A DNA stretch of 64,000 nt, taken from assembly GCF_019203185.1 (NCBI RefSeq), contig NZ_CP078093.1:620001-684000 (forward strand). The letters run 5' to 3'. This DNA comes from Crassaminicella indica. GTDB lineage: Bacteria; Bacillota; Clostridia; Peptostreptococcales; Thermotaleaceae. The stretch's first letter is position 1, and the number at the start of each line of letters is the position of its first letter. Both the position numbers and the translations under genes were made by a program. Under the pieces are notes generated by a model. The model was not told the origin of the DNA. It made no database searches and worked only from the letters and a program-made list of their open reading frames with translations. This document shows positions 2,036-2,839 of the stretch, piece after piece.

Positions 2036-2839
2036 TTATAAAAGTTTTACTAACGGATTCGCGAACATAAGCACCAAAGAAATAACTAAAGCGTATATTC
2101 CTGTAGTTTGTGCTACTGCCTGACCAAGAATCATCGTCTTAATAATATTTGACTGATATTTTGGTCTTCTTCCTGTAGCTTCTGTTCCTTTTCCTGCTGC
2201 ATACCCTTGTCCAACTCCAGGTCCTATCCCTGCTATCATTGCAATACCTGCTCCTAATGTTGATGCAGCTACAACAATAGTAGCTTGATGTCCTGTCACC
2301 AAAGGATTTGCATACATTAATATCAATGCAATAACTAATGAAAATATTCCAGATGTTTGTGCAACAGCTGATCCTAACAACATTACTAGAGTTGAAGGTC
2401 TTGAACCATCTGGATTAATACTTGCTGCTTCACAGCCCTTCCCAGCTGCATAGCCTTGTCCAATACCAGGTCCTATCCCTGCTATCATTGCAATACCTGC
2501 TGATATAGCTGATACAGCAATAATCAAACCATCTCCATCTTGTTTAATGAGTGGATTTCCAAATAGCAATATCAATGCAATAACTAATGATAATATCCCT
2601 GAAGTTTCTGCAATACCAGCACCTAAAAGCATAATCATAGTTGAATGCTTTGATCCCTTTGGATTAACACTAGTTGCTTCTGCACCTTTTCCTGCTGCGT
2701 AGCCTTGTCCAATACCAGGTCCTATCCCTGCTATCATTGCAAAGCCTGCTCCAATAGCTGATGCTCCAAGAATTAAAGCCTTCTTGTCAAAGCTTAGCAG
2801 CCAGTTTAAAAAAGTTACAATAAAATTGGTATTCTCCAT
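2036..2839 (-). CDS. Fused triple-hairpin ATP synthase c subunit with a single ion-binding carboxylate
   Basis: A 267-residue protein made of three tandem c-type hairpins (about residues 19-100, 101-183 and 184-267), six membrane helices in all. Each hairpin keeps the first-helix signature with its glutamine ([14 protein letters not shown]). Only hairpin 1 has the ion-binding glutamate (E78, in AGIAETSG). The matching positions are Q161 (SAVAQTSG) and Q244 (QAVAQTTG). The ATG follows a GGAGG site, and the frame is open throughout. The gene sits between atpB and the normal c gene. Two-hairpin c subunits with one carboxylate are known from A. woodii and from V-type rings. Three hairpins with one site in an F-type operon is unusual. 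The single-site reading is inference from sequence. Confidence 0.93.

Follow-up and report, generated by a model that had tools for sequence, protein, structure and literature searches.

A three-hairpin c subunit with a single ion-binding carboxylate in the F-type ATP synthase operon of Crassaminicella indica

Introduction

The number of ions that an ATP synthase moves for each ATP sets an energy limit for life on poor substrates, and this ratio is hard to alter at will: in the fused H+ ring of the Bacillus PS3 enzyme, a single Glu-to-Gln exchange (E56Q) abolished both ATP synthesis and pumping (PMC8809890, in extract). How, then, might a c subunit that carries two such exchanges in succession fit into a working rotor? 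The question is raised by a gene in the Crassaminicella indica genome (contig NZ_CP078093.1, positions 620,001 to 684,000; this whole stretch of 64,000 nucleotides is referred to below as the window), which encodes three fused c hairpins but only one ion-binding Glu. Here, we describe the gene and its setting, the relatives in which comparable subunits occur, and a residue pattern that distinguishes interfaces with a carboxylate from those without.

Results

One reading frame, three hairpins, one carboxylate

The gene opens with an ATG start codon and continues for 267 codons as one open frame, with no stop or frame break (Table 1). The preliminary description had placed three fused hairpins in this frame, with Glu78, Gln161 and Gln244 at the ion-binding position; the open reading frame and a codon count both agree, at unchanged coordinates. 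The Pfam ATP-synt_C model (PF00137) matches the protein in three stretches (whole-protein E 1.1e-40) and TIGR01260 scores it at 120.9 bits against a cut-off of 43.95, placing it within the F-type c family. It departs, however, from the family's rule of one essential carboxylate per hairpin, having Glu only in hairpin 1 and Gln in the other two (a pattern we write as E-Q-Q); with one carboxylate to three hairpins, we therefore class it as a variant of the c1 subunit.

Table 1. Features of the atp locus in the window (codons are given for the residues at the carboxylate position and at the position of Tyr70)
Feature	Coordinates	Strand	Remarks
Subunit alpha (atpA), 5' part	1..612	-	gamma, beta and epsilon follow beyond the window (L283)
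Subunit delta (atpH)	631..1173	-	PF00213
Subunit b (atpF)	1161..1664	-	PF00430
Single-hairpin Na+-type c subunit	1722..1988	-	88 aa; Q32, V63, E65, T66, Y70
Ribosome-binding site of single c, AAAGGAGG	1997-2004	-	read from sequence
Triple-hairpin F-type c subunit (atpE1-like)	2036..2839	-	267 aa; pattern E-Q-Q; open reading frame and three PF00137 stretches
Hairpin 3 (aa 183-267)	2039..2293	-	Gln244 (CAA, 2108-2110) replaces the carboxylate; Tyr249 (2093-2095) retained
Hairpin 2 (aa 100-182)	2294..2542	-	Gln161 (CAA, 2357-2359) replaces the carboxylate; Phe166 (2342-2344) replaces Tyr70; nearer first-type hairpins
Hairpin 1 (aa 18-99)	2543..2788	-	Gln45 and Glu78 (GAA, 2606-2608), the sole carboxylate site; Leu83 (2591-2593) at the Tyr70 position
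Ribosome-binding site of triple c, AGGAGGTG	2845..2852	-	read from sequence; strong
Subunit a (atpB)	2870..3565	-	PF00119, E 4e-56
AtpI-like protein	3565..3972	-	PF03899
ATPase gene-1 protein	4104..4325	-	PF09527

Separate genes with a missed stop are ruled out by the single open frame, and another finding that would have undone the preliminary description, Glu codons in hairpins 2 or 3, was not encountered: in the seven triples compared, the hairpin 1 codon is GAA, with CAA or CAG in both of the others. Each of the three hairpins retains a Gln32 equivalent and an unbroken Gly-rich stretch, and a helix that precedes hairpin 1, short in the AlphaFold model, is conserved among triples. All three hairpins are under purifying selection, with dN/dS values of 0.015-0.16 across them in six species pairs of triples; the ‘dead’ hairpins are therefore not decaying.

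The triple lies within a complete F-type operon

The gene sits between atpB and a single-hairpin c, as part of a complete F-type atp operon in the order I, a, triple c, c, b, delta, alpha, gamma, beta, epsilon. The frame of the single c, as first called (1722-2015), begins too early and is likely to start at 1988; the protein has all five residues of the Na+-type site (Gln32, Glu65, Thr/Ser66, Val63 and Tyr70), the normal Na+-type c that had already been reported to follow the triple, with its numbering intact. Across the genome (one contig, 2.76 Mb, 98.67% complete) the only PF00137 matches are the four hairpins of the triple and the single c, so nothing points to a second rotary ATPase. An rnfC gene (578 bits) is also present.

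Two other identities for the protein were considered and ruled out: that of a V-type subunit, by the Glu in hairpin 1, the F-type operon and an NF005124 score of 20.6 against a cut-off of 127; and that of an archaeal multi-hairpin A-type c, by the F-type content of the operon. Upstream on the same strand (window positions 4851-8532, minus), Pfam identifies two CoA-transferase subunits, a beta-keto acid cleavage enzyme and a class-III aminotransferase; the group resembles an amino-acid fermentation cluster.

Relation to known rotors

The closest solved protein is the c1 subunit of Acetobacterium woodii (4bem_J; phmmer E 1.4e-58). An AlphaFold model built from ten triples, of middling quality (pLDDT 76.4, pTM 0.73; pLDDT 70 to 38 for the other four models), predicts six long helices and the short N-terminal one. 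With this model as query, 4bem_J is the sole Foldseek match at E 0.001 or better (E 5e-11) and gives a VIA-align Z of 14.8 (rmsd 3.7 over 181/182 residues), the Foldseek overlay itself being loose (TM 0.41/0.54, rmsd 6.4). The comparison with A. woodii c1 drawn in the preliminary description is thereby borne out by sequence and, at the level of a predicted model, by fold.

The A. woodii subunit and the triple share a good deal: in both, c hairpins are fused, only the first carries Glu, the last combines Gln with Tyr at position 70, where hairpin 1 has Phe or Leu, and a single-hairpin c is encoded alongside. A. woodii c1, however, has two hairpins and one dead interface, as against three and two in the triple, and is accompanied by two single-c genes, where the window has one. 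The triple thus has the fused hairpins, leading Glu, closing Gln and F-type operon with a single c that mark a hybrid-rotor c1 of the A. woodii type, but three hairpins instead of exactly two, and is hence a variant of that subunit and not a plain member of its class. The two-hairpin c1 (E-Q) of the A. woodii hybrid rotor looks like the form on which the triple and the longer fused c subunits described below are elaborated.

The V-type K subunit (NtpK) of Enterococcus hirae and its relatives, whose ring is built wholly of fused subunits, likewise has fewer carboxylates than fused hairpins and shows the same Tyr-before-Glu pattern (see below); it differs in carrying its carboxylate in hairpin 2 rather than hairpin 1, in having two hairpins and in belonging to a V-type enzyme. 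The archaeal c of Methanocaldococcus jannaschii keeps two carboxylates out of three hairpins, and neither for this species nor for Methanopyrus kandleri do we know of a single-c partner. A 2015 account of hybrid rotors by Brandt and Mueller reportedly lists only double c1 subunits. The two archaeal proteins, with three and thirteen hairpins respectively, share with the triple their fusion into one chain but belong to V/A-type enzymes, and that of M. kandleri has the full ligand set in all 13 hairpins (PMC2359735, in extract). Clostridium aceticum, which has a Na+-dependent ATPase, also pairs a fused c1 with a single c2; its c1, however, has two hairpins, of which the first shows Q...ET and the second Q...QT (PMC7911925, in extract). 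The preliminary description knew of no F-type c with three hairpins and one site, and we found no paper on one among the matches listed in open-access PubMed Central, from which subscription papers are mostly absent; a search with the genus name gave no literature on the organism itself among the matches listed.

Fused c subunits in related genomes

The tabulation that the preliminary description had called for, of the carboxylate in each hairpin of long c homologues, shows that one-site triples recur: E-Q-Q is found in 13 of all the genomes read and E-Q-Q-Q in four, some of loci L008-L016 possibly duplicating species counted elsewhere. It also shows that the triple does not stand in isolation, being one step in a series of fused c subunits whose further architectures are E-Q-E-Q, E-E-Q, E-Q-E-E-Q and a six-hairpin form.

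In the family, 14 of the 16 genomes have a match and six a full-length triple; these carriers of E-Q-Q are the window genome, the three others of its genus, and one genome in each of two other genera. The triple gene is 96% identical to that of the window in G006, a one-contig genome, and 90% identical in Crassaminicella thermophila (G009, two contigs). In these two genomes, in the window genome and in G012, the triple replaces the double directly before the single c. The second contig of C. thermophila (G009:C2, L244; 36.6 kb, NZ_CP042244.1) is 100% identical over its first 8 kb to plasmid NZ_CP042244.1, which identifies the species, and the matching part carries terminase, portal and capsid genes; it is a phage-like plasmid.

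At the level of the order, 253 of 297 genomes have a match, and reading covered those with a fused c or with two or three weaker matches. Fused F-type c genes were read in 81: 63 have only E-Q doubles, eight E-Q-Q alone, two E-Q-Q together with E-Q, three E-Q-Q-Q, two E-Q-E-Q, one E-Q-E-E-Q, one the six-hairpin E-Q-E-Q-E-Q, and one at least five hairpins in a gene cut by a contig end. The 16 other order genomes with two or three weaker matches gave no fused F-type c, only single c and V-type K. In the class survey, 14 of 391 genomes pass E 1e-30, among them three more with E-Q-Q, one with E-Q-Q-Q, two with E-E-Q and one with E-Q-E-Q, the last sharing its genus code with G383, a genome like that of A. 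woodii. In the phylum survey, 14 of 398 pass E 1e-32 and, besides the window's own, 13/13 have E-Q doubles. The class and phylum cut-offs are strict, and doubles elsewhere may therefore be missed.

Several loci have arrangements of their own. A double c in a Syntrophomonadaceae genome (L016:3043-3932) lacks a carboxylate altogether, Ala and Gln standing in its place, and has Met instead of Gln32 in hairpin 1; a normal single c follows. The six-hairpin c of G026 (L186) is a 538-aa frame followed by a single c, G037 being similar but cut by a contig end. Two separate double c1 genes lie in tandem before the single c in G016 (L242), G148 (L125), G091 (L131) and G756 (L162). The E-E-Q triples or modules of G425 (L190), G317 (L191) and G113 (L183) have an altered motif, ISETSGIL or (V/I)AETSTIL, and two successive carboxylates with no Tyr70 between them. 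Finally, two c genes of G106 (L301:1389-2012, minus strand of the locus) encode one hairpin each, and the first of them combines an N-terminal leader like that of c1 with Tyr70; this is perhaps a c1 shrunk back to one hairpin by recombination.

In fused c proteins, Tyr70 and Thr67 mostly mark hairpins that precede a carboxylate

In the Ilyobacter tartaricus site, Glu65 and Gln32 of one subunit (A) meet Ser66 and Val63 of another (B), and in the E. hirae K site Glu139 and Gln110 meet Thr64 (PMC2359735, in extract). The residue numbers of the latter place Glu139 and Gln110 in hairpin 2 and Thr64 in hairpin 1, and the donor would therefore be the preceding hairpin. Tyr70 hydrogen-bonds Glu65, whilst Thr67 contacts the water of the site (PMC3692424, in extract); Tyr70 would then be supplied from the same donor side as Ser66 and Val63.

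The fused c proteins (117 in number) are patterned as this geometry would predict. Hairpins that precede a Gln hairpin have Tyr70 in 0/145 cases and Ser67 in 137/145; those that precede a Glu, the last hairpin of a fused c being counted as preceding a Glu-bearing c, have Tyr70 in 121/127 and Thr67 in 123/127. Single c proteins of the same loci have both Tyr70 and Thr67 in 112/112. The pattern fades considerably when it is scored by the previous hairpin instead (Tyr in 103/243 after Glu and in 17/29 after Gln). In V-type K, hairpin 1 has Tyr and hairpin 2 either Leu or Phe at 30/30 loci read (35 genomes over the cut-off); these frames were picked with a pattern that required position 70 of hairpin 1 to be aromatic, but 0/30 loci were lost by it and all have Tyr.

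Six complete hairpins precede a Glu but have no Tyr: hairpin 3 of G113 and hairpin 1 of both G425 and G317, which share the E-E module with an altered second motif (ETST); and the last hairpins, with Phe, of G933, of G867 and of the second double of G091. The Tyr counts exclude the protein of G037 cut by the contig end, otherwise a seventh exception, and skip one cut frame of G193. Position 70 is also Phe or Leu in 11 of 20 more remote single c proteins, so we claim the rule only for the fused-c group and V-type K. A tree needs as few as 2 changes of Tyr: the pattern is mostly inherited, and the 272 fused-protein hairpins are therefore far from independent tests. The best independent case is G175, in which a middle hairpin of the last type (best identity 0.81 to last, 0.62 to first) has Phe, not Tyr, before a Gln hairpin.

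These comparisons alter the reading of Leu83, which had been taken as an extra oddity of the triple: Leu or Phe occupies this position in the first hairpins of all fused F-type c proteins read, that of A. woodii c1 (Phe) included. In a geometry like that of the I. tartaricus and E. hirae sites, residue 70 of hairpin 1 should be a partner of the hairpin 2 site, already dead, and Leu83 is thus probably no damage to the Glu78 site. The Tyr70/Thr67 pattern as a whole suggests a rule by which an ion-free interface could be designed.

Origin of the triple

Outside the motif columns, hairpin 2 of the window triple is nearer to first-type hairpins (best identity 0.73, mean 0.66) than to last-type hairpins (best 0.63, mean 0.57). 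A tree of 53 hairpins, whose bootstrap had not settled, joins it with the first-type hairpins on a 100/100 branch and has three E/Q changes. This points to hairpin 2 being a copy of the Glu hairpin, its own Glu then lost by one base change, GAA to CAA; the position-70 rule would offer a reason for the loss, because the copy sat behind a hairpin without Tyr70. A single clade of all Gln hairpins is not rejected in either the 53-hairpin tree (p 0.198) or a larger quick tree (p 0.649), in which the tree so constrained scored even higher; nor does the larger tree reject one clade of the first-type Gln hairpins of different lineages (p 0.852). An independent second Glu-to-Gln change is so favoured, not shown.

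For G175, identity and tree agree that the middle hairpin is of the last type, and this triple seems to have arisen by copying the last hairpin. Set against the first-type copy elsewhere, E-Q-Q has thus probably formed at least twice.

A lone triple in two Marinisporobacter genomes

The operons of G007 and G008, which are contigs of the Marinisporobacter MAGs L006 and L005, encode a double and a single c, and an extra triple lies outside the operon (L194:4230-5170 and L195:3960-4780, respectively), making three c genes per genome. The lone triple is upstream of the operon, between a CoA-transferase-like gene and an ATPase gene-1 gene. Folding places terminator-like nucleic-acid hairpins with T tracts on both sides of it (z -6.5 / -4.1 in G007, -6.1 / -4.0 in G008), and the two genomes agree at 164 of 174 aligned upstream bases, as against 721 of 800 within the gene. 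In G007, a consensus scan found no promoter beyond chance (5 promoter-like sites, 7.7 in shuffles), and a scan for loops of at most 8 with at least 3 G-C pairs found no terminator at the ends of the gene.

Nowhere else among the genomes read could a cell alter the proportion of triple to double. The lone triple looks like a separately transcribed gene and might act as a gear shift, letting conditions set the number of triples per ring and with it the Na+/ATP ratio; Clostridia would then have evolved graded inserts, with 0, 1, 2 or 3 successive ion-free interfaces, that tune the ratio stepwise. We regard this idea as doubtful.

Discussion

The reading we favour, and think likely, is that a hybrid Na+-type rotor has the triple as its c1, which exceeds that of A. 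woodii by one hairpin and is built into the ring as an ion-sparing insert. One or a few triples would be inserted among many copies of the single-hairpin c. At one end of the insert, Glu78 and Gln45 of the same hairpin would share ion binding with the preceding single c, through its Val63, Thr66 and Tyr70; at the other, the Glu65 site of the following single c would be served by the Val/Thr/Thr/Tyr face of hairpin 3, which includes Tyr249. Between these, interfaces 1/2 and 2/3 have Gln for Glu and no partner Tyr, so would serve as ion-free spacers, each triple removing two ions per turn. We infer ring incorporation, ring size, copy number, choice of ion and the gain for the cell; this last may be a steeper gradient for each ATP spent in pumping, or a larger ATP yield per Na+ at high gradient. 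Against this reading, two dead sites in succession might stall a motor, given the effect of the single E56Q in the PS3 ring (PMC8809890, in extract), although A. woodii tolerates one.

The anatomy amounts to a precise prediction. A plain c11 ring moves 3.67 Na+/ATP. In an assumed ring of 11 hairpins, simple arithmetic gives 9 sites and 3.0 Na+/ATP for one triple with eight single c, and 7 sites for two triples with five; some 98 degrees of rotation would separate Glu78 from the next Glu. Every Na+ F-type ring characterised by 2013 had 11 hairpins (PMC3692424, in extract), and the A. woodii ring has 10 Na+ sites and 3.3 Na+/ATP (PMC7793690, in extract). The 3:1 ratio of helix pairs to sites given in the preliminary description holds for the subunit but not for the ring, since the operon also encodes a single-site c; the ions moved per turn depend on how many triples enter.

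A less likely reading is that the triple is the product of neutral growth: tandem duplication would have lengthened c1, and the extra hairpins would have lost their carboxylates since a copied first-type hairpin without Tyr70 cannot serve the next site, with no selection for the change in ion count. The many architectures and their patchy spread are in keeping with this, as is the grouping of the middle hairpin with first-type hairpins in tree and identity, so that the copy would face a preceding hairpin without Tyr70; the E-E-Q triples of G425 and G317, with their ETST motif, look like an intermediate stage, and G106 seems to have reverted to a single-hairpin c1. Chance lengthening, however, sits less easily with an E-Q-Q that is under purifying selection and occurs in every one of the genus's four genomes and in two others of the family, or with G175, where a copy of the last type also lost its Tyr in what looks like the fitting of a face.

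We consider it improbable that the triple mainly starts ring assembly, or halts rotation at its ion-free stretch to guard against wasteful ATP hydrolysis, the lower ion count being a by-product. In an 11-hairpin ring the two successive ion-free interfaces would, by arithmetic, set the carboxylates about 98 degrees apart, near one F1 step, and the conserved N-terminal helix is a further point in its favour. So is the single Gln that suffices to stop the fused H+ ring of PS3 (PMC8809890, in extract); the same stall should, however, hit synthesis, and doubles already work in A. woodii. It is more improbable still, indeed very unlikely, that the triple is made but stays outside the ATP synthase ring, or is silent: the triple of G007 and G008 does stand alone, beside an operon with a double and a single c, but in the window genome, G006, G009 and G012 it takes the double's place right before the single c, it is under purifying selection, and the window genome has no other c or K gene. 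A fault of assembly or sequencing can be dismissed, the same gene being present in five other genomes of the family at 85-96% identity with no stop or frame break.

An ion-sparing insert, the reading we prefer, extends the hybrid rotor of the A. woodii type and gives it a structural rationale, and the observation is more general than the preliminary description could tell. Natural c1 subunits appear to bear one, two or three Glu-to-Gln changes in a row, and the triples of the window's kind stay under selection. The series E, EQ, EQQ and EQQQ offers ready-made rotors for relating ion count, gap length and torque; if built into the ring as predicted, the fused c units would be natural low-gear motors.
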